This document shows, in pieces, positions 12,637 to 27,895 of a stretch of DNA of 50,462 bases. Numbering within the stretch: the first letter of the stretch is position 1; every line of letters starts with the position of its first letter. Origin of the DNA: ANME-2 cluster archaeon (GTDB lineage Archaea; Halobacteriota; Methanosarcinia; Methanosarcinales; Methanocomedenaceae); assembly GCA_014237145.1 (NCBI GenBank), contig JAAXOC010000038.1, positions 1 to 50,462 of the forward strand, written 5' to 3'. A program made the position numbers and the translations under genes. A model generated the notes under the pieces. The model was not told the origin of the DNA. It did no database searches and saw only the letters and a program-made list of their open reading frames with translations.

Positions 12637-13386
12637 ATGATGCAAACTGAAATATCTATCATAATACCTACACTCAACGAAGAAAAATATATTGATACTA
12701 CACTTAAAGCACTGGTAAAGCAGAATACTAATGTCCCGTATGAAATAATTGTTTCAGACGGCGGCAGTGATGATGGCACCATTGGAGTTGCAAAACTCTA
12801 CACTGATAAGGTGATTCACTGCAAAGATGTTGGTATAGGATATGGCAGACACTTTGGTGCATTAAACGCATCTGATAGCAGCAAGTACTTCGTGTTTGTT
12901 GACTCAGATACAATACTGCCTAGCTATTTTCTTGCCTGGATGTATGATCGGTTCATGAACAATCCTGGTGTTGTTGCCTTTTCAACACATTTCGATTTCT
13001 CTGAACAGTCGCAGCAGTTGAAGCTCGCACAACAGGTTTCGAACCATTATTTTGAAATGCGGGACAAACTGTTCACGGCAACACTTCCAGGATTCATCAC
13101 GTGTGTGCGCAAAGCTTCTTACTTTAAATGTGGAGGCTACCGTAATGTTTTACTTGAAGATGTGGATTTTAGCAGGCGGATCTGCAAGGAAGGTAAATTG
13201 AGATATTTCAACGATATCACAGTTATAAATTCATCCAGGCGGCTTGAAAATATGGGACTTATTGGAACTATATACTACTATGCTCAACTTGATATTGGAA
13301 GAAAAATCGATTCTACAATTGTCGATAAAATTACAAATAAACTCGGTATTGCAGACCTTCGTGAATATATCGGCATACGTGAGTGA
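12637..13386 (+). CDS. Family 2 glycosyltransferase
   Basis: A 249-residue GT-A fold enzyme. The N-terminus ISIIIPTLNEEKYI and IIVSDGGSDDGT are the nucleotide-sugar binding segments of family GT2. VFVDSD (about residues 87-92) is the DXD metal site, and LLEDVDFSRRI (about 170) carries the acidic acceptor-side motif. There is no membrane segment, so it is likely a cytosolic or membrane-associated enzyme acting on lipids or surface glycans. ATGATG at 12637 has no clear ribosome binding site. A MITE lies just upstream. The next gene starts 9 bases after the stop. Confidence 0.88.
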   Translation: MMQTEISIIIPTLNEEKYIDTTLKALVKQNTNVPYEIIVSDGGSDDGTIGVAKLYTDKVIHCKDVGIGYGRHFGALNASDSSKYFVFVDSDTILPSYFLAWMYDRFMNNPGVVAFSTHFDFSEQSQQLKLAQQVSNHYFEMRDKLFTATLPGFITCVRKASYFKCGGYRNVLLEDVDFSRRICKEGKLRYFNDITVINSSRRLENMGLIGTIYYYAQLDIGRKIDSTIVDKITNKLGIADLREYIGIRE

Positions 13387-13395
13387 CCAGACTTA

Positions 13396-13674
13396 ATGAA
13401 AATTGTCCCCTCAAAACCCACCCGAGATATTAGATTCCAAGTTAGACAGATGATAGTATTTTTTGAAGATAATGAAGCATCTTTTGCCCATAACTATCCA
13501 ATTTTGTCAGGAAAAACCATTCAACAGTTTAAATTTCATCATAAAAATTATATGAAAACCACTGTTTTTAATCAAAATCAGCACCTTACCGAACTCGTAA
13601 AAGCCATGGTGGACATAGCTAATAAATCCGAACATGCAGCAGACTGCTTGATGACTATGATACTTAAAAGATAA
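13396..13674 (+). CDS. Small protein of unknown function, 92 residues
   Basis: A soluble, mostly helical protein with many Phe, His and Asn residues (for example FKFHHKNYMKTTVFNQNQH) and no membrane segment. It starts 9 bases after the glycosyltransferase, so it is probably in the same transcript. No family was recognised. No strong ribosome binding site is visible, which fits translational coupling. Confidence 0.5.
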   Translation: MKIVPSKPTRDIRFQVRQMIVFFEDNEASFAHNYPILSGKTIQQFKFHHKNYMKTTVFNQNQHLTELVKAMVDIANKSEHAADCLMTMILKR

Positions 13675-13694
13675 AACCTGCCTTAGTGCAGGTT
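13675..13694. terminator. Hairpin shared by two convergent genes
   Basis: AACCTGC and GCAGGTT form a 7-bp stem with a 6-base loop. The hairpin sits right after the stop of the 92-residue gene and covers the stop of the oxidoreductase gene on the other strand, so it can serve both transcripts. Confidence 0.5.
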
Positions 13695-15167
13695 CCCGTC
13701 TTCGTTCAACGCACCCAGCATCTCTATGATCGAATACGCAGCGCGGGTTATGCCCATACTCCGGCTATCCGTATCCGTGCCAGCCAGATACAAGTTTTTG
13801 ATCGGAGTCCTTATATCTGCGATTTTTCCATTAATGGTGACAGCCGCTTTTTCAGGAATTGTGATCTGTTCATGCTGCATTTCAACATGTCTTTCTATGG
13901 ATGGCAGGGCACGGTAAACAGTATCATACGCATTCTTTATAACTGAATCTTCAGATCTGTCATCATCCATCACAAATCCGAACCCTACGAGCTGTTTTCC
14001 CTTTGGTGCAAGAGATGGGTCAAAATTACTTATCGGCATTGCCCAGTATGGGGTGTCCTTGAACCATACCTCTGAACCCATATAGTTGAACTCGTCCATC
14101 TTCCTGTCAAGACCTAACCAGATAGTCAGGCTCTTGGTCTGGACAATTCCGCCAAGATAGTTAATATAAGATATTGGCAGATCTTCAACAATATCAGGCA
14201 GGTTCTTTGCAAAACCTGTGTAGACCACGAGATCGGCATAGTAAGTCTGGTCCGTTTCTACACCTATGACTTTCCCCTCATTTGTGAGGATGCGTTTTAC
14301 CTCACACTGAGTCTGAATCTCAACCGTTTCCGGAAGAGAGTAGAGAACAGCATTTAACATTGATCTGAGCCCTTTACGCGGATACCCTTGAGCTTGGGCA
14401 GTATCACTATTGGCTACAAACCTACTGATCGATGCAAGCGAGATTGGAACAGTGCTTTTGATCTGAAGTGATGATTCCAGTATCCCTGACAATGTTAACC
14501 CCAATGATGTATGAAAATTGGAGTGTAATATGGACTGAAGAATAGATTCAGTATGTTGCAGCATTTCTTTTGGCCCCACAATACTTTCAAACTGCTCCTG
14601 TGTGACACTGTCGCGTATGAAACTGCTGCCGGTCAGCATCCTGTGAACAGATGTCTCCTTCATAGATTTCCCTGACAGGAAATATGATATTGCGTTGACA
14701 AAATCATATGTATCCTTTGACAGGGTACGCGGCAGTGAGTCATACACCGATTGTTTAGAGAGGTCTGTACCAAAAGTTGATAGCGTAAGAACTTTTGTGG
14801 CTGCCTGTGACAGCACAAGCCTGTCTTTTTTTGGAAGAATGTCGTATGTGATAAATTCCTTCAAATTCGATGGGACCTTCTGGAAACTGTCTTCTGTTCT
14901 GATAAAATAATTGCCATAATCCTCAAACACTGGCACGTAATTGAAATAGTTATCCATCAGCCTCTTTAATGGTCCAACTGCAAGATGCGTGATGGCATGG
15001 GGACCGGTATCGACCTGATAATCATCCACTATGTAACTATTGCAATTTCCACCTACATGCCCCGTTTTTTCGAGCACCAACACTCTGTTACCATGTTTTG
15101 ACAGTGTAAGCGCAGCCAGAAGTCCGCTAATCCCCGCACCTACAACTATAACGTCAAACTTATTCAT
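13683..15167 (-). CDS. FAD-dependent oxidoreductase, phytoene desaturase (CrtI)-like
   Basis: The 494-residue protein opens with the dinucleotide-binding signature VIVVGAGISGLLAALTLSK and LVLEKTGHVGGN, followed by DYQVDTGPHAIT. This is the layout of the CrtI / carotenoid isomerase / amine oxidase group. The end, LYLAGTDTDSRSMGITRAAYS, is the second FAD contact. Such proteins desaturate, saturate or isomerise polyprenoid chains; the substrate here is unknown. Archaeal members include geranylgeranyl lipid and carotenoid enzymes. It lies 112 bp downstream of the TrmB gene in the same direction and may be read from the same transcript. Confidence 0.8.
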   Translation of the reverse strand: MNKFDVIVVGAGISGLLAALTLSKHGNRVLVLEKTGHVGGNCNSYIVDDYQVDTGPHAITHLAVGPLKRLMDNYFNYVPVFEDYGNYFIRTEDSFQKVPSNLKEFITYDILPKKDRLVLSQAATKVLTLSTFGTDLSKQSVYDSLPRTLSKDTYDFVNAISYFLSGKSMKETSVHRMLTGSSFIRDSVTQEQFESIVGPKEMLQHTESILQSILHSNFHTSLGLTLSGILESSLQIKSTVPISLASISRFVANSDTAQAQGYPRKGLRSMLNAVLYSLPETVEIQTQCEVKRILTNEGKVIGVETDQTYYADLVVYTGFAKNLPDIVEDLPISYINYLGGIVQTKSLTIWLGLDRKMDEFNYMGSEVWFKDTPYWAMPISNFDPSLAPKGKQLVGFGFVMDDDRSEDSVIKNAYDTVYRALPSIERHVEMQHEQITIPEKAAVTINGKIADIRTPIKNLYLAGTDTDSRSMGITRAAYSIIEMLGALNEDGNLH

Positions 15168-15279
15168 TTTTTTATTCCACTTTAATGAGATGTGTATTGC
15201 TCAAATATTTCGGGCACAATGCAACCTATAACTCTATTCTGTTAGTTTCTCTATTGTCTCTCTGTGTATCAATCACAAC

Positions 15280-16065
15280 TTATTCTGGAATTGTGCATGC
15301 TCTCCATTCGGCATCAACAAAATGCTTAAAAATAGAGATGACCTCATTCCCGTTTGACCAGATCGCAGTTAGATCTTCGTTTCCAATCTCTTCTTTAATG
15401 ATAGCGATTAAAACTTCAGTATCGTCTACCACTAATATTCCACCCTTCACGGGAGCCATTGTTATTTTATCGGAATATGTCCGAATTTCTGCCCCTGGGA
15501 GAACTTCTGCAATTGCATCGGCATCATGTTGTGTACTGCCCGTGATTTTTACCTTGACACCTTGTTCCAGTCTTTTTTGTAGCGCCAGTTTTAGTTTTTC
15601 AAGAACCGGATAGGCTTCCATTATTTTGTGAAATGAAGGATATGAAGCTGCAAAAATAATCTCAAAAGTTGCGCTTTCAATCATTTTTATCATCCGGTCA
15701 TTAACGTTTTTCACACCGTTGATGGTCCAGACAATTTCTTCTTTTAAATCTACTTCATGGGTTTTGTAGATGTTTTCTAACATCTCAAAGGCTTTCTGGC
15801 TTTCAGCGTAATAATCTTCTTTAAGTTTTTCAAATGCTCTGTCAGGTGATACGGCCCTGAATTTCATTGGTTTGGTGTGCTGGACCTCAATGATCCCCTT
15901 CTCATTGAGCTTTGTCAGTACACCATATACTGCAGACCTGGGTATTCCAGACAGGACGTGAATGTCTGTTGCAGTCCCGCTGCCGGCTTTCGTTATTGCA
16001 GCGAACGCTTTTGCTTCATAATCTGTCATACCCAATTTCCGAAGAGTTTCAATTAGATCATTCAT
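15280..16065 (-). CDS. TrmB-family transcriptional regulator
   Basis: The 261-residue protein has an N-terminal winged helix (about 1-75) with the TrmB signature LRKLGMTDYEAKAFAAI and SGIPRSAVYGVLTKLNEKGI. A short coiled linker is followed by a phospholipase-D-like fold regulatory domain (about 110-255), the usual TrmB layout. TrmB proteins sense sugars or other small ligands. It follows the COG1361-like gene by 24 bases and is transcribed with it and the RND exporter, so it probably controls that export locus. Confidence 0.88.
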   Translation of the reverse strand: MNDLIETLRKLGMTDYEAKAFAAITKAGSGTATDIHVLSGIPRSAVYGVLTKLNEKGIIEVQHTKPMKFRAVSPDRAFEKLKEDYYAESQKAFEMLENIYKTHEVDLKEEIVWTINGVKNVNDRMIKMIESATFEIIFAASYPSFHKIMEAYPVLEKLKLALQKRLEQGVKVKITGSTQHDADAIAEVLPGAEIRTYSDKITMAPVKGGILVVDDTEVLIAIIKEEIGNEDLTAIWSNGNEVISIFKHFVDAEWRACTIPE

Positions 16066-16089
16066 TTAAACCACTAATCGTCCTATATG

Positions 16090-17169
16090 TCATTCAATAG
16101 TTATTTTTTTTCGTTTAATATACAAGTATATTGGTGTCCCGATAATCCCAAGAACCATCAATATTAAAACAGTTGGACTCTCTTTAACCTTATCCATAAA
16201 AGGGACAGCTGGTTTTACATTAACTGTAGCCTTCAAAGCTTTCGAATACTGGATATCTCCATGTTCATCATCATATTTGATTTCGTTCTTTATTGCATAA
16301 CTTTTTGATGTTGCTGTTTCATCCACGTTAATCTTGTATAATGCTGTCCTTGACTCACCCGTTGCCATATCTCCAAGGTATGCCTGATCGTCAGTTGTAC
16401 TGAACGGATCCACTGTGCTGATTCTTGCAATTGCGTCATAAGCTGTAACATCTCCTACATTCTTATATGTTACTTTCAACATCCCGCTTTCACCTGCTGT
16501 CAGATATGATGTAGTTTCTGTTACTTCAAAGAATGGTTGCTCTTCGATTTCGATATTAATTATTGCAGTCTCGTTTCCTTCCACATTCCAGAAATAGGTC
16601 TCACCATAGGGAGCTGAGACTGCAGAATCTTTCTGGTAAGTATATGTAATGTCAAGTCGAAGTTCATAGATACCTGCCCTGGCATTATCATATATCCGGA
16701 TCGGGAAGGTAAGTGGATCTTCTGTGGACTTCCCTTCCTGAAGCGAGTCTATCAGTACAGTATTTATTTTTATTTCCAGAGGTGTACCAGCATTCACCAA
16801 TGACAGTTTTCCTGTCATGGATTTTGCGGTTGTGACCTGGCGGTCTAAATTCAGTTCCTTTGCCGCAAGACCCATTACAAGGTCTGGACCGTAATCAGCA
16901 ATATCATCATCCAGTTCGTCATTATCTGCTTCAAAGCCATAGGTCTCGCCGTCATTGAGCAGTGTAATAAAAAGGGTACCTTCGTCTCCCCGTTTGAATG
17001 TGTTGTCACCTGATATGACAGCAGTTATATGCGGCTGGCCGTACACGTTGTAATAGTCATCACTGATCTCACCGACATTGTATTCATCCAGTACCGCTGA
17101 TGCACTAAATATAGTATTGCACAACAGCAGAGCAGTTATTATTGCGAGTAGTACTTTTCTTGATCTCAT
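16090..17169 (-). CDS. Secreted COG1361-like (S-layer-related) protein with C-terminal anchor
   Basis: The 359-residue protein has a signal peptide (KVLLAIITALLLCNTIFSAS), then two beta-rich domains of the NEW3/CARDB kind. Characteristic pieces are GDEGTLFITLLNDGE and AGESGMLKVTYKNVGDVTAYDA. It ends in one membrane segment (about 335-352) and a basic tail, so it stands on the outer face of the membrane. The gene sits between the RND exporter (upstream, 47 bases) and the TrmB gene. COG1361 proteins next to RND exporters are common in methanogens, and the pair is likely a transport unit, with this protein as the extracellular partner. Confidence 0.8.
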   Translation of the reverse strand: MRSRKVLLAIITALLLCNTIFSASAVLDEYNVGEISDDYYNVYGQPHITAVISGDNTFKRGDEGTLFITLLNDGETYGFEADNDELDDDIADYGPDLVMGLAAKELNLDRQVTTAKSMTGKLSLVNAGTPLEIKINTVLIDSLQEGKSTEDPLTFPIRIYDNARAGIYELRLDITYTYQKDSAVSAPYGETYFWNVEGNETAIINIEIEEQPFFEVTETTSYLTAGESGMLKVTYKNVGDVTAYDAIARISTVDPFSTTDDQAYLGDMATGESRTALYKINVDETATSKSYAIKNEIKYDDEHGDIQYSKALKATVNVKPAVPFMDKVKESPTVLILMVLGIIGTPIYLYIKRKKITIE

Positions 17170-17216
17170 TTATTCATCTTCCTTTTTATTAATAATTATA
17201 TTTATTTTTTAAAATT

Positions 17217-19556
17217 CTAAATTATTGGGTTTTTTTTCTGGATCTTCCTTTTTGACCTCCAGATGTCAAGGTGCACCATAACAGGAGGCAGGACTATGAG
17301 AGTGCTCAGTAGTGAAAATCCAACAGCGATGACGGTAACAACACCGAAATCGCTTAGGATTGGAAAGGGCGTTGCAATAAGGGCTGAAAATCCGAATATC
17401 ACCGTAGAACCAGAGGCAATTATTGCTGGTCCAATCTTTGCTGAAGCGGTTTCCATAGCTTCCATGGGGATAAGCCCGTTTTCACGCTCTTCGAAATACC
17501 TTTCCATCATGAGTATAGTAAACTCTGCCCCGATCCCGAGAACCAGTGCCCCAAGGGTGGCTGTTAGAGGATTATATTCCATTCCCAAAAGATACATAAC
17601 ACCACCTGACCATCCTGTCACCATGAGGATCGGCAGGATTGGTACAAATGCCTTCAGCCAGTCCCTGTAAATAACAAGTAGTCCAAAAAAGATCAACGTA
17701 AGTCCCAGATATCCCATAGCTATCCTACCTGAGGTTAGTGCATCCAGGACAGAGGTCATAGTAACCTGCCGACCGGTAACGGTGGTTGATACACCTATTG
17801 GTGGAGGATACCATTCAATATCGCTCTTAACATTCTCAATCAGTGCTGCAATCTGTTCGGTCTTGAGATTTTGGTCAATCTTCAAGTTCAAGATTCCTAA
17901 ATCACCGCCCAGCACATATCGGTCTTTAATCGTACCGGGCAAACCGTCCACAATGCTGTTCACAACAGCAGGATCGGACGGAACAGCACCATATGCTACC
18001 TTAATAGGAGTTGCAAGGCTGTCCGAACTTATTATGTCTTTTTGTTTTTCAACTTCACTCCGGCCAAAACTATCCATCCAATGTATGACGGAAGGGTCTG
18101 TAACATCATCTGCTCTAATAATGATGTTCAGTTGATCCATGCCCCCTATTAGATTGTTCAATTTGTCAAAATCATTCAAAGGCTTAAGGTCCTGCGGTAT
18201 GAAGTTTTTAATATTGGTCTGGATACCTACATGCTCATCTGCGTACAGTCCCCCTATTGTTAACAGACTCGCAATTCCAATAACAATCAACGGGTTTTTC
18301 GCCATTGTGACGGTAAAATGTCCAAGGAATCGGCCGAAGCCTTCGGTGCTATCATTTTTTGTTATGTTTTCAGCTTTAATGGTGCTTTTACTGTTACCAC
18401 CATTGCAGCGGGCTTTTTTTAATGCTTTTTTCTCTGCTCTACTGTCCAATAGGTATAGCACAGGCAACAGTATAAACATAGACACGAAGTAGCTGAGAAT
18501 CACACCGATTAAGCTCATCTTTCCGAAATCCCGGATCATTGGGACCGGGGAGGTAAACAGGGCTACAAAACCGAGACTGGTTGCAACTATCGCTGTGCCT
18601 ACAGCAGGTCCCATATGTTTTATGCTCTCGATAATGGCCTCGGATGCGGTTTCTCCCCGTGCCAGTTCTTCCTCCGCTCTATTATGAAACTGGATGGCAT
18701 AGTCCACACCAAGACCGATGAGGATGGGAAATACTGCCATTGATACCATTGTCATGGGTACATTTGTAAAGCCCATAGCTCCGAAGGTATATATGATTCC
18801 TATCAGGACTATGGGTAAAGGAAGGAGTTTCCAGCGTACATGTTTGAATGCTATTAGCAGTGCAACTGCCATTAGAAGTCCTGAAATGGCAAGCATCAAA
18901 CCCATACTTTTATTCATCTCTTCCTGAATTGCTATCATAAAAGCAGGTTCACCAGTAACGATTGTGGATGTGCCTGGCGGGAAATTCGCCCATGTAACTG
19001 CAGTTTTGGTCTCTGACAGCACCCATTCCGTATTCTCAGTCGTAACATCCTCTCTCATTTCAATCATGACAATTGCGTGGCGGTCATCAGGCATTAACAG
19101 GGCAAGATATTCCTCAGGAGTGCGGGAAATAATATGTTGGATGGTATGTTTATCTTCGGGTATATCGGAATGACCGTACTGCTGGGATGCAAAATCTTTT
19201 ATGATTGTGGCGATGCTGAATGTACCTTTGACATCTTTTTTGCCTTCCATCGATGTTCCCAGTCTGTCCATAGCTTTCAGTACTTCAGGGTCAGAAATGT
19301 CATCTGATTCCACAAGAACGATTATTGCCTCTGCACCGAAATTTTGTTTAAAAAGGTTATTATAATCTTGATACAGTTTCGAGGATTTTTCGGTAAAAGT
19401 ATCTTCACCGGTTTCAGTACTGATTTTTCCGGCACCGTAGAATGAGACAAATATTAAAAGAAATGCTACCAGAAGGATTAACAAAGTGCGTTTTTCTATG
19501 AATATTCCGATTTTTTCGTAGATGTCTTTTATGGACAAATTCATGCGATGCTTCAA
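17217..19556 (-). CDS. RND superfamily exporter, MMPL/HAE3 type
   Basis: The 779-residue protein has about 12 membrane segments in two repeats, each with one segment, a large external loop of about 170 residues, and five more segments. Conserved pieces are FPILIGLGVDYAIQFHNR in the first half and LGALVLGIGAEFTILMMERY in the second. These carry the proton-relay acidic residues of the family. It belongs to the hydrophobe/amphiphile exporter 3 group, which handles hydrophobic molecules such as lipids or hopanoids in other organisms. It is the first gene of the locus. ATG codons at 19556 and 19544 both fit, and there is no firm ribosome binding site. Confidence 0.9.
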   Translation of the reverse strand: MKHRMNLSIKDIYEKIGIFIEKRTLLILLVAFLLIFVSFYGAGKISTETGEDTFTEKSSKLYQDYNNLFKQNFGAEAIIVLVESDDISDPEVLKAMDRLGTSMEGKKDVKGTFSIATIIKDFASQQYGHSDIPEDKHTIQHIISRTPEEYLALLMPDDRHAIVMIEMREDVTTENTEWVLSETKTAVTWANFPPGTSTIVTGEPAFMIAIQEEMNKSMGLMLAISGLLMAVALLIAFKHVRWKLLPLPIVLIGIIYTFGAMGFTNVPMTMVSMAVFPILIGLGVDYAIQFHNRAEEELARGETASEAIIESIKHMGPAVGTAIVATSLGFVALFTSPVPMIRDFGKMSLIGVILSYFVSMFILLPVLYLLDSRAEKKALKKARCNGGNSKSTIKAENITKNDSTEGFGRFLGHFTVTMAKNPLIVIGIASLLTIGGLYADEHVGIQTNIKNFIPQDLKPLNDFDKLNNLIGGMDQLNIIIRADDVTDPSVIHWMDSFGRSEVEKQKDIISSDSLATPIKVAYGAVPSDPAVVNSIVDGLPGTIKDRYVLGGDLGILNLKIDQNLKTEQIAALIENVKSDIEWYPPPIGVSTTVTGRQVTMTSVLDALTSGRIAMGYLGLTLIFFGLLVIYRDWLKAFVPILPILMVTGWSGGVMYLLGMEYNPLTATLGALVLGIGAEFTILMMERYFEERENGLIPMEAMETASAKIGPAIIASGSTVIFGFSALIATPFPILSDFGVVTVIAVGFSLLSTLIVLPPVMVHLDIWRSKRKIQKKNPII

Positions 19557-19684
19557 TACCTGAATAGTATTTAACTCTTTTTATTATTAAAATAACAACC
19601 GATATGTTTTAATTATTATTACAAAAACTATATGTATTATAACTACACATGATAAATATTCAGTGAATACAGCATATATCTGGT

Positions 19685-20192
19685 ATGTTAAAAATGAAGG
19701 AAACAAAATCAATTTTCCCGGTATGCCATAATCTGATTGATGCGGTAATTTTTGATAATGACAATAAGACATGCATTGAAAAGAACTGCAAAGACCATGG
19801 AACGTTCAGGGATGATAACATAAATATAAAGAGTATACCTAAGAATATGATATATACAGGTAATACACCTTATATTAAAGCAGTTCTGTCTGCCAGTGAT
19901 ATATTCTTTTTTCCTTCCATACATGAGACTCAGGGTCTTGCTATTGTTGAAGCAGAAGCCAATAGCCGCCCAATTGTTTCAAAATCTGCCTGTATTCAAA
20001 GAATGGCTGACCCATGGGTGCGACTGCGTGATGGGGACATGTGTAAATGATTTTGCCGCGCATATACAGACATTAATTGAAGATGAGGATTTTGCAGTTA
20101 GGTTAGGGAGGGAAGCTCGTAGATCTGCTGTGAAACATCATGATATTAATAGGACATCCAGATCACTGGCTGGAATATATGAAGAGCTATAG
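19685..20192 (+). pseudogene. Chimera of a Tes-like radical SAM N-terminus and a glycosyltransferase C-terminus
   Basis: The first 45 residues (TKSIFPVCHNLIDAVIF, then IEKNCKDHGTFRD) match the N-terminal zinc-binding region of radical SAM proteins of the tetraether synthase (Tes) group, with the first Cys of the usual CPxC replaced by Phe. At about 19826 the frame switches to the last third of a family 1 glycosyltransferase (MIYTGNTPYIKAVLSASDIF, PSIHETQGLAIVEAEA). Near 20035 a frameshift follows, and the frame then ends VNDFAAHIQTLIEDED and SLAGIYEEL at 20192. It looks like a deletion joining two genes that later decayed. Neither half can be functional as it stands. Confidence 0.7.
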
Positions 20193-20270
20193 GGTATCAC
20201 AACCATTCGTGCGAAAATGCATAAAAATATTAATAATTAAACATCTAACATAAAATAGGAGTTTTTGTAT

Positions 20271-20579
20271 ATGATTGAAACTATCAGGAAATTGGGTCTT
20301 TTGGGAATTGGTGCCTGGGCACTCACTGAAGAAAAGATCAACGAAATCGCAAAAGAACTTGTTGATAAAGGTGAGATTAACAAGGAAGAAGGCAAGAAAT
20401 TTGTAAAGGAACTTATTGACGAACAGAAGAAACAGAAAGAGGATCTCGAAAAAAGGATATCCGAAAAAGTGAAGGAAACGTTCAGCAAGGCTAAAACTGA
20501 AACAAAGGAAGAGATAGAACGTCTTGAGAGAAAGATTGACAAGCTCGAAGAGGCAATAGATAAGAAACTCTCAGAATAA
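20271..20579 (+). CDS. Phasin-like small coiled-coil protein
   Basis: A 102-residue protein. A short hydrophobic start (TIRKLGLLGIGAWAL) is followed by an almost wholly charged helix rich in Glu and Lys with a heptad pattern (ERLERKIDKLEEAIDKKL). This is the layout of the phasin-like family often annotated as polyhydroxyalkanoate granule-associated. No polymer synthase is in the window, so a granule role is unproven and a general membrane or envelope coiled coil is equally possible. AGGAG lies 9 bases before the ATG at 20271; a TTG at 20265 is too close to it. Confidence 0.7.
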   Translation: MIETIRKLGLLGIGAWALTEEKINEIAKELVDKGEINKEEGKKFVKELIDEQKKQKEDLEKRISEKVKETFSKAKTETKEEIERLERKIDKLEEAIDKKLSE

Positions 20580-26013: not shown

Positions 26014-26190
26014 ATGATAGTGTTGAACAACACTATACTAAGTGTATTCAAACGACTTGATGAAACCAATCTGTTAAAAGAGCTACTGTTAGGCGAGGTT
26101 CTACTTCCAACAGCAGTCGTGAAAAAATACCTTGAGATTGAAAAAGAAAGTGAACTGAAAGGATTTACGAAAATTAAAGCTATTTCCCGG
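26014..26190 (+). pseudogene. Truncated DUF3368 PIN-type toxin
   Basis: It starts MIVLNNTILSVFKRLDETNL, with LLLGEVLLPTAV following, as in DUF3368 PIN proteins paired with UPF0175 (compare the intact pair at 33098-33855). The first catalytic Asp is replaced (LNNT instead of the usual xDNT or SDT). The match is lost by about 26190, where it runs into the end of the phospholipase-D-like gene on the other strand, so two thirds of the domain is missing. Confidence 0.65.
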
Positions 26191-27895
26191 ATTTACCCAT
26201 CCATTGCTTTATTAAATAGATCATTGATACAGCGAGCAGTATCATCACCACCACTATTAAGAAATTTATGATTGTTTTTGATGATTTATTCTCTGTTATG
26301 CCCAGGTTCCAGTCATATAGAAAGACTTCAGTATAGTATGCTGCAAGCTTTGGATTTTCGATTATGATGCCGATCTCTCTGTTATAGGTAGGGCTATGTT
26401 TGTTCCAGTTTATCGAAGAGATCAGTACCCTTTGGCCGTCAACGATCACACCTTTATTGTGAATTTTTGTAATTCCATCCCGTTTCACAAGCCGTGCTTC
26501 AAGGTTCAGGTTCTCCTGCGAAGCGAGATCGTTCAGATAGTTGCAGAGTTCATCATTATCATTCTCCTCGTTTGTGTTGTACCACATTGAATCAAGGAGG
26601 ACTTTCACTTCCACACCCTGCATTGCAGCATTGATCGCAGATTGAAGGTAAGGGCTCTCATCGTTTCTCCAGTCCCTTCTTATATACGCCTGCTCGATAT
26701 AGAGCGTCTTTTCAGCAGAGTTTATCGTTTCGATGATCGTTTCATAATGGAGGGTATTGTCAGGTCCGATAATTATGCTCGCTGTGAACTCACCGTTTAT
26801 ATCCTTTGCTTCAAACACCGTATGCCCGATACGGTCACCTGGCTCATCCGAATCTGATTTAGATCCCTGCGGCAGGTCATTGGGACTAACCTTTATTCCA
26901 TGTGCCCAGTCATGCTCAAACACGGAAGACATATCATGGAATATCTCCCTGTCGCTTATGACAACACCCCAGCCGCGATTTCCGATGGAACCATCTGGCG
27001 GATAACCACCAATGTTCCAGTTCTCAGAACCGAGAATAAGGGTATCGCTGTCTATCAGTGCGTACTTTGCATGGTTCAGCCGGTAAAGCGAATCATTACT
27101 GAAACGAACCTCTCCCCCTTTTTCTATGATGTGCCTGAGTATTTTGACTTCATAATCGCTGATACCGCCAACAGGACTGCCCTCGATGAGAATATACACA
27201 GTTCCACCTCGACTGAGCAGATCTATCACCTCACGTTCAATATCCTGGCTTTCAAAGAGATAGACATTCACTTTGAGAACGGATGCACTCCGGATCTCCT
27301 TTTGAAGAATCTCAAGACTGCAATCTGGCGACACAAAGACTGTGACCTCGCCTGAAAATGATTTAGAAGATGGCATAAACTCTGACTGCCCGCGGTAATA
27401 CTCTTTAAGAGGCAGCCACTCATATGCAGTATCAGTGTCATTATCAAGATAGAAGCGCCTGAATATGCGCTCTTCAGAAGCGCTGCCAAGAACGGAACCC
27501 TGCCAGCCTTCCCCTTCATACTCAGAGCCTCTGTAAATGACACAATCCACCATGCGTGACGTACTATCGAGAAGTATCACCTCGTCTCCACTGTTACTGA
27601 GCTGGATCCCATTTGCCGGAAGTTCGATTTGGTAGTTCGATTCCGGATCAAGAATTGTTCCACTAGGAATTTCAAACTCTCCCTCAAGGTCTGTGAGAGT
27701 AAAACCGGATATATCAATTCCCTGACCTGTCGGGTTGTAGATAACCACATACTCGCCCTGATCCATCAGAGCTTGTGGATTTGGAAGAAACTCGAGTATT
27801 ACCGGATGTGTGATGCCGGATGCTGACGATGGATTTATGGCAGATGTTGCGAGAAGAAGAGCGCATAGAAGTATAACGAAATTAAATCTAATAAT
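26180..27895 (-). CDS. Secreted phospholipase-D-like protein with lamin-tail domain
   Basis: Domains in order: signal peptide (VILLCALLLATSAIN), lamin-tail domain (VILEFLPNPQ to about residue 130), two PLD domains, and a C-terminal membrane segment with a basic tail. The HKD motifs are HAKYALID and HNKGVIVD, each followed by an SxNW or SENW site, so the enzyme looks active. It should hydrolyse phosphodiesters of nucleic acids or lipids outside the cell. The first ATG (27766) cuts off the signal peptide and the start of the lamin-tail domain. The open frame extends to 27910 without ATG, GTG or TTG. ATT at 27895 or 27892 follows AAGGAAGGG at a fitting distance, so I place the start there. A sequence error is the alternative. 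Confidence 0.82.
   Translation of the reverse strand: MIRFNFVILLCALLLATSAINPSSASGITHPVILEFLPNPQALMDQGEYVVIYNPTGQGIDISGFTLTDLEGEFEIPSGTILDPESNYQIELPANGIQLSNSGDEVILLDSTSRMVDCVIYRGSEYEGEGWQGSVLGSASEERIFRRFYLDNDTDTAYEWLPLKEYYRGQSEFMPSSKSFSGEVTVFVSPDCSLEILQKEIRSASVLKVNVYLFESQDIEREVIDLLSRGGTVYILIEGSPVGGISDYEVKILRHIIEKGGEVRFSNDSLYRLNHAKYALIDSDTLILGSENWNIGGYPPDGSIGNRGWGVVISDREIFHDMSSVFEHDWAHGIKVSPNDLPQGSKSDSDEPGDRIGHTVFEAKDINGEFTASIIIGPDNTLHYETIIETINSAEKTLYIEQAYIRRDWRNDESPYLQSAINAAMQGVEVKVLLDSMWYNTNEENDNDELCNYLNDLASQENLNLEARLVKRDGITKIHNKGVIVDGQRVLISSINWNKHSPTYNREIGIIIENPKLAAYYTEVFLYDWNLGITENKSSKTIINFLIVVVMILLAVSMIYLIKQWMGKSGK

Follow-up and report, generated by a model that had tools for sequence, protein, structure and literature searches.

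The window analysed here, the whole 50,462-nucleotide contig JAAXOC010000038.1 of an anaerobic methanotrophic archaeon (ANME) of the ANME-2 cluster, contains at 13683-19556 of the minus strand four adjacent genes: an RND exporter, a membrane-anchored surface protein, a TrmB-family transcription regulator and an FAD-dependent protein (hereafter FAD-w) related to MA0127, which we take to be the gene number of the hydroxyarchaeol synthase of Methanosarcina acetivorans. A sequence-only reading had treated the four as one locus that makes, senses and exports or places a modified isoprenoid. Our comparisons favor a different interpretation, which we regard as likely: the genes form two independent units lying side by side, namely a member of the hydroxyarchaeol-synthase family acquired by transfer and an accessory exporter cassette, with no make-sense-export pathway between them. 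Direct support comes from the gene identities, the place of FAD-w in phylogenetic trees, the remains of foreign genes on both its sides and the independent losses of the two units among relatives.

The four genes are open reading frames (ORFs) on a single strand, separated by gaps of 47, 24 and 112 bases, and both this layout and the proposed gene identities were borne out. The exporter (17217-19556; 779 aa) scores 639.1 bits against the HAE3 family model TIGR00921 (cut-off 351.9); its TTG start at 19556 is a mechanical call, with an in-frame ATG four codons inward. Its partner (16090-17169; 359 aa) matched no Pfam family and is recognized by its RND-adjacent homologues in relatives and by its predicted model (mean predicted local distance difference test score, pLDDT, 82.9), in which a beta-rich part lies between an N-terminal and a C-terminal helix; a structure search with this model recovered only generic beta-sandwich proteins at low TM-score, and we give the fold no name. 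The regulator (15280-16065; 261 aa) has the PF01978 domain (69.7 bits, gathering score 25.6), part of PF11495 and structural matches to TrmBL2 (E 2e-10), and reaches none of the named TrmB equivalogs (TrmB, TrmBL1, TrmBL2) in NCBIfam, the best score being 92 bits versus 650. FAD-w (13683-15167; 494 aa), placed in its family by alignment and trees, matches PF01593 (Amino_oxidase) and PF13450 (NAD_binding_8) above their cut-offs, and none of the 25 NCBIfam models listed for it above its own. The genome G007, from the same family as the window, aligns to 15278-19814 with 88% DNA identity and identical gene order; therefore, the order is not an accident of assembly.

The relatives of the window provide a natural dissection of this arrangement. 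Besides FAD-w, the window's own genome (2.97 Mb in 118 contigs, the window being contig C38) encodes a second close family member, FAD-p (contig C110, 72249-73643), 60% identical to the first. Across the 17 genomes of the window's family, ANME-2a/b (f1), FAD-w is found in eight, its own included, and FAD-p in 15; within the eight genomes that are at least 90% complete, all have FAD-p, four an intact FAD-w, one a broken FAD-w and three none (G002, G008, G009). The six complete copies of FAD-w are those of G000, G005, G006, G010, G012 and G013, with G003 holding it in contig pieces and G007 a broken one, and the window-type RND is restricted to the window and G007. In G007 the cassette is intact and FAD-w lacks nucleotides 1-355 and everything after 1361, besides having acquired a 2-base insertion and an in-frame TGA. 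The opposite state is seen in G006, G012 and G013, where an intact FAD-w comes after a leftover stretch covering the end of the surface gene and the beginning of TrmB (approximately 16009-16130 of the window, 79-83% DNA identity), and in G010, where it follows remnants of the RND (18338-18431, 94.7%) and surface genes (16151-16234, 92.9%). G005 and G003 have FAD-w with remains of purC; the match to the window stops at 15249 and 15275, respectively, with other genes beyond, and G003 retains a family 2 glycosyltransferase (GT2) gene on the downstream side. The three FAD-w pieces of G003 (on C60, C80 and C130; L173, L236, L188) partly overlap and represent either two copies or mixed strains.

As G007, the remnant-bearing genomes and the window each keep different parts, the two units were already paired in an ancestor common to several genera, and the arrangement was later lost from either side. 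Ratios of nonsynonymous to synonymous substitution rates (dN/dS) are 0.14-0.39 for pairs of FAD-w and, between the window and G007, 0.17 for TrmB, 0.19 for the surface protein and 0.23 for RND. Judged by their sequences, FAD-w and the cassette both look functional and the linkage between them looks dispensable. The pairing being old and yet decaying from both sides, the adjacency is probably an accident of neighborhood, and the loss of each unit independently of the other argues against a make-sense-export pathway. Conservation of the four-gene order, suggested as a check on the single-locus proposal, was seen in just one of 60 relatives, G007, with its broken FAD gene. Likewise, of the 80 named loci that carry the FAD gene, some with short flanks (upstream DNA exceeds 1 kb in 73 and 3 kb in 64), 76 show no match to the exporter, surface protein or TrmB nearby, an outcome that the sequence-only reading had itself named as refuting it; the other four are L036 (fragments), L053 (ANME-2c, with TrmB and RND about 8 kb off) and L064 and L113, both weak distant matches. 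At least nine of the 80 lie on contigs that the whole-genome set also contains.

The cassette also occurs on its own. A Methanolobus genome (G042) has RND, surface protein and TrmB in the same order with 54, 49 and 49% identity, its FAD gene being 0.69 Mb off, and the RNDs of the window and G007 group with that of G042 (support of 100 in the Shimodaira-Hasegawa-like approximate likelihood ratio test, SH-aLRT), apart from the RND type that is common in the order and of which the window's own genome has a copy at C73, followed by two surface genes. In ANME-2c (f2) the arrangement is TrmB, RND, surface, surface. Thus, the part of the sequence-only reading that paired the exporter with the surface protein stands, and with TrmB they make up a recurring unit, seen in G042 and ANME-2c. 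The window-type surface gene (E <= 1e-75) is present in 19 of 111 Methanosarcinaceae (f4) genomes (12 Methanolobus, six of genus g24 and one of g18); four of these have the surface and FAD genes on one contig, 97-808 kb apart, and the other 15 have them on different contigs, which by itself still allows closeness. From its families, the segment 15280-19556 is predicted to specify an RND pump that, together with its membrane-anchored beta-rich partner, would, with TrmB as regulator, export a molecule that is hydrophobic or amphiphilic, a substrate class suggested by the RND family.

FAD-w has a distinct provenance. FAD-p groups with the Methanoperedens copy (SH-aLRT 93 and 92 in two trees) and adjoins a gene also found beside that copy (gene cluster 23), for which a Pfam scan yielded no name; it is preceded, in one direction, by genes for topoisomerase VI, gyrase B and A, ScpA and ScpB (L170:8241-17996). 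FAD-w groups instead with ANME-3 (SH-aLRT 100 in both trees, the branching within the group being resolved in part), and is 78-84% identical to the copies of all seven ANME-3 genomes; the corresponding values are 72-73% for ANME-2c copies of full length and 49-73% for copies from the remaining Methanosarcinaceae. A single clade of the FAD-w and FAD-p of ANME-2a/b is rejected by the approximately unbiased (AU) test (p-AU 4.5e-9), although AU-test groups were named after the first FAD tree had been seen, by family and gene order, and such p-values are optimistic. In ANME-3, Methanolobus, Methanococcoides, Methanomethylovorans and others, the gene order is purC, FAD, DUF47, PHO4, from which Methanosarcina and three of four Methanohalophilus loci depart. 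The window matches the ANME-3 locus L037 over 13582-15222 (83.7% DNA identity), extending past the FAD gene on both sides. Upstream, the 112-base gap holds the 3'-end remains of purC (SAICAR synthetase; 15201-15272, minus strand), which align to L037 over 72 columns at 68% with a score of 47 versus at most 32 in 60 simple letter shuffles, the number used for every row, and to L039 with 53 versus 34. Six of the seven ANME-3 rows beat their own shuffles, L043 being the exception (31 versus 34), as did only two (L048, L060) of seven rows from other Methanosarcinaceae. Downstream, the last 30 residues of the DUF47 (PhoU-like) protein are kept (13582-13674, plus strand) at the end of a small ORF (13396-13674), 76.7% identical to L037 (E 6e-11).

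Because ANME-3 has whole flanking genes where ANME-2a has fragments, we infer transfer from an ANME-3-like member of the Methanosarcinaceae to ANME-2a/b. FAD-w would thus have entered with the ends of the donor's two flanking genes, adding to the inherited copy still in the genome, and would have come to lie beside the cassette before several of the family's genera diverged, each unit later being lost independently. A scenario in which ANME-3 supplied the cassette together with the FAD gene was considered and rejected, as none of the seven ANME-3 genomes has the window-type surface gene at the above threshold. Among the titles and abstract openings listed in searches of the open-access literature on hydroxyarchaeol and ANME, none concerned gene transfer of this kind.

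The family of FAD-w is nearly ubiquitous in the genomes searched (58 of 60 relatives at E <= 1e-60; 107 of 111 Methanosarcinaceae at E <= 1e-80), and its FAD-binding motif (G10, G12, G15, E33) is invariant in sets of 11 and 25 aligned members. The genome taken as M. acetivorans (G122) has two members at the latter threshold: one, at 3,704,201, is a window-type gene (66-68% identical to the window protein), and the other, G122:C1:153013-154401, is probably MA0127, going by its gene number and the 115-131 ORFs that precede it (length cut-offs of 100 to 80 aa). This candidate and the window protein align over their full length with 50.3% identity (493 columns). The predicted model of FAD-w has a mean pLDDT of 69.8, residues 180-259 being unreliable, and a Protein Data Bank sequence search with the protein gave matches limited to its FAD-binding start. 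The original placement of the oxidoreductase among polyprenoid-modifying enzymes is right in kind, for it falls in an isoprenoid-modifying family. A carotenoid desaturase of the CrtI type was rejected, with crtI_fam (TIGR02734) scoring 51.3 bits versus 238.1 and the other listed CrtI-type models also below cut-off. That a phytoene-desaturase-like gene of M. acetivorans makes hydroxyarchaeol is reported by Mori et al. (2015), as cited in PMC9128505, PMC10821996 and PMC12669819. We call the window type a putative hydroxyarchaeol synthase mainly because it is the sole family member detected, at either of the above thresholds, in the Methanohalophilus and Methanococcoides genomes searched, genera with reported makers of this lipid; it is reported in Methanohalophilus mahii (PMC3017947), Methanococcoides methylutens (PMC6775961) and M. 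burtonii (PMC4823666). FAD-w is hence probably a gene of this family making that lipid, an activity suggested by the family and by the organisms that form the product. Its enzyme probably catalyzes an FAD-dependent, non-oxidative hydration, in which an archaeal lipid precursor takes up water at the 2',3' double bond of a geranylgeranyl chain, and would thereby yield the 3'-hydroxy chain of hydroxyarchaeol, as extrapolated from MA0127 as cited in PMC12669819.

Several side observations concern this family. The MA0127-type gene is patchy, occurring as a second copy in six Methanosarcina genomes, and that of Methanosarcina is nearest to one type of Methanoperedenaceae gene (70-75%; the loci concerned are L219, L182, L184 and L221-L225); judging from this distribution, the characterized MA0127 enzyme may itself be the product of a transferred gene. 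Window-type copies number two or three each in several Methanosarcina (G123, G124, G125, G126, G134, G149, G151). A contig filed as ANME-1 GoMg2 (L055) has a window-type FAD gene grouping with the Methanosarcinales bins L050, L052 and L054, reflecting either transfer or a misplaced contig.

Certain points weigh against the reading of two independent units with a captured hydroxyarchaeol synthase; they concern the reaction, the location, the layout of the genes and the material itself, the genomes compared being mostly metagenome bins. As regards the reaction, the MA0127 candidate sits in a 32-row clade (SH-aLRT 98) that includes the inherited copies of ANME-2a/b, ANME-2c and Methanoperedens and excludes the window protein; because it belongs to this other subgroup, FAD-w could catalyze a different reaction. 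FAD-w might then be an MA0127 relative acting otherwise on isoprenoid lipids, e.g. by hydration elsewhere or on the other chain, double-bond reduction or desaturation, with the inherited copy making hydroxyarchaeol. The identity of only about 50% to the candidate fits this, as does the dispensability of FAD-w, absent from three of the eight most complete ANME-2a/b genomes, all of which keep the inherited copy. Nevertheless, Methanohalophilus and Methanococcoides, including reported makers of hydroxyarchaeol, show a window-type member only, and we consider a different reaction unlikely.

As regards the location, ANME-2c also has a Methanosarcinaceae-type FAD copy in the same general neighborhood, and two captures in one neighborhood are unexpected if the location is meaningless. 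A single transfer common to ANME-2a/b and ANME-2c was rejected, one clade having a p-AU of 4.6e-9. In the ANME-2c genome G032, the copy lies between a gene for a phasin-like protein and a YjeF gene, which are adjacent without any FAD copy in G043 and G049. The ANME-2c neighborhood comprises a 286-aa gene and genes for GH35 (glycoside hydrolase), GT2, a UbiB-type kinase and the phasin-like protein; in G028 it also contains the TrmB cassette, about 8 kb from the FAD spot, and in G017 a distance of 2.3 kb separates TrmB and the FAD gene. The neighborhoods of ANME-2a and ANME-2c have in common the cassette and the GT2 and phasin-like genes, which flank the four genes in the window (GT2, 12637-13386, plus strand; phasin-like, 20265-20579, plus strand, PF05597 at 30.8 bits). 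The phasin-like gene adjoins an ABC1/UbiB-type kinase in G007 and ANME-2c (L206:1140-2822; L194:706-2400) and does not do so in the window. The two captures may reflect a functional link, a hotspot of insertion, or passage of the region from one to the other of ANME-2a and ANME-2c. As a speculative proposal to which we accord a low probability, the shared neighborhood (cassette, GT2, UbiB-type kinase, phasin-like protein) would be a lipid module of the cell surface into which a hydroxyarchaeol synthase of the Methanosarcinaceae type was brought on two independent occasions, the product or its placement being linked to the module, so that ANME-2 would run two synthases in different roles, one inherited and one captured.

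As regards the layout, the single direction and short gaps of the four genes are what one operon would display, in which a modified isoprenoid produced by the oxidoreductase is exported or placed by the RND and surface protein, with TrmB sensing that compound or a related lipid. The ancestral pairing, preserved in the window and G007 and as remains in G006, G010, G012 and G013, and the similar FAD copies 2.3 to 8 kb from TrmB in G017 and G028 of ANME-2c are also consistent with it. A simple motif scan for TATA-like octamers (at most one mismatch), which cannot show the presence or absence of a promoter, gave hits ahead of RND and between RND and the surface gene, and none in the 112-base gap before FAD-w. 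On the other side, either half was lost with the other kept, in the four one-contig cases among the Methanosarcinaceae the FAD gene lies hundreds or nearly a hundred kilobases from the surface gene, the two halves have different nearest relatives (ANME-3 for FAD-w, Methanolobus for the RND), and in ANME-3, Methanolobus and others the FAD gene follows purC and not an exporter. Each half thus surviving without the other within the window's own family, we deem a single operon decidedly improbable. Least credible by far is a reversal of the transfer, from ANME-2a to ANME-3, which the unrooted trees and the incomplete resolution among L037, the other ANME-3 and ANME-2a would accommodate, for it is ANME-3 that has the complete purC-FAD-DUF47-PHO4 order, shared with Methanolobus, Methanococcoides and Methanomethylovorans, and ANME-2a that retains just the purC and DUF47 ends.

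These comparisons have a defined scope. The window's genome is of the ANME-2a type (Candidatus Methanocomedens): by its FAD protein the closest named relative is S7142MS1 (94%), to whose genus G005 also belongs, and Table 1 of PMC9012536 lists S7142MS1 as ANME-2a, Candidatus Methanocomedens, and HMMV-459B1 as ANME-2c. Methanoperedenaceae form family f5 of our set. Genera were named through equal coordinates of genomes and named loci: g11 Methanohalophilus (G087 = L078), g15 Methanococcoides (G081 = L076), g16 Methanolobus (G111 = L091), g24 Methanomethylovorans (G118 = L107), g25 Methanosarcina (G149 = L085) and g26 ANME-3 (G152 = L041, G153 = L037). All trees are quick, unrooted searches with SH-aLRT support only. 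For the FAD tree 112 loci were offered, five of which had no usable ORF (L039, L049, L104, L165, L188); the larger version omits seven duplicate rows and gave a long-branch warning on g23_G082, and row L138 was dropped from the RND tree. Elsewhere in the window, ORF pieces in 19685-20192 match parts of a 353-aa ORF of G003 (L237:4958-6019) beside the phasin-like gene, suggesting that this segment may hold a decayed gene, and 26180-27766 encodes a protein that joins a lamin-tail domain to phospholipase-D-like domains.

The proposed history bears on the use of lipids as markers. sn-2-Hydroxyarchaeol is a standard ANME-2 lipid marker in sediments; if its probable synthase has moved among ANME-3, ANME-2a/b and ANME-2c, with two types in several genomes, then the presence of the lipid or the pattern of its isomers need not track lineage in a simple way. 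More generally, half-deleted copies in relatives can settle whether adjacent genes form a functional unit.

Precedents for the individual components are presented by several known systems. The window protein shares its family and the conserved FAD-binding start with the MA0127 system of M. acetivorans, but belongs to another subgroup, and its activity is a predicted one. With the CrtI-type carotenoid desaturases it has in common a fold class, 3ka7, 4rep and 5mog being among the Foldseek matches of its model, whereas the cut-offs of the listed NCBIfam CrtI models lie far above its scores. The gene downstream of purC in Methanosarcinaceae is of the same subgroup as FAD-w, but is accompanied by whole purC and DUF47 genes, whereas FAD-w retains their ends only and stands beside an exporter cassette. 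The exporter resembles the RND exporters of the HAE3/MmpL type, both in passing TIGR00921 and in having HpnN, a solved relative, and MmpL5 among its weak structure matches; it differs from them in its membrane-anchored surface partner and TrmB regulator. That regulator, in turn, has the DNA-binding domain and part of the effector domain of the TrmB/TrmBL2 proteins, from which it is set apart by scoring below every named NCBIfam equivalog of the group.

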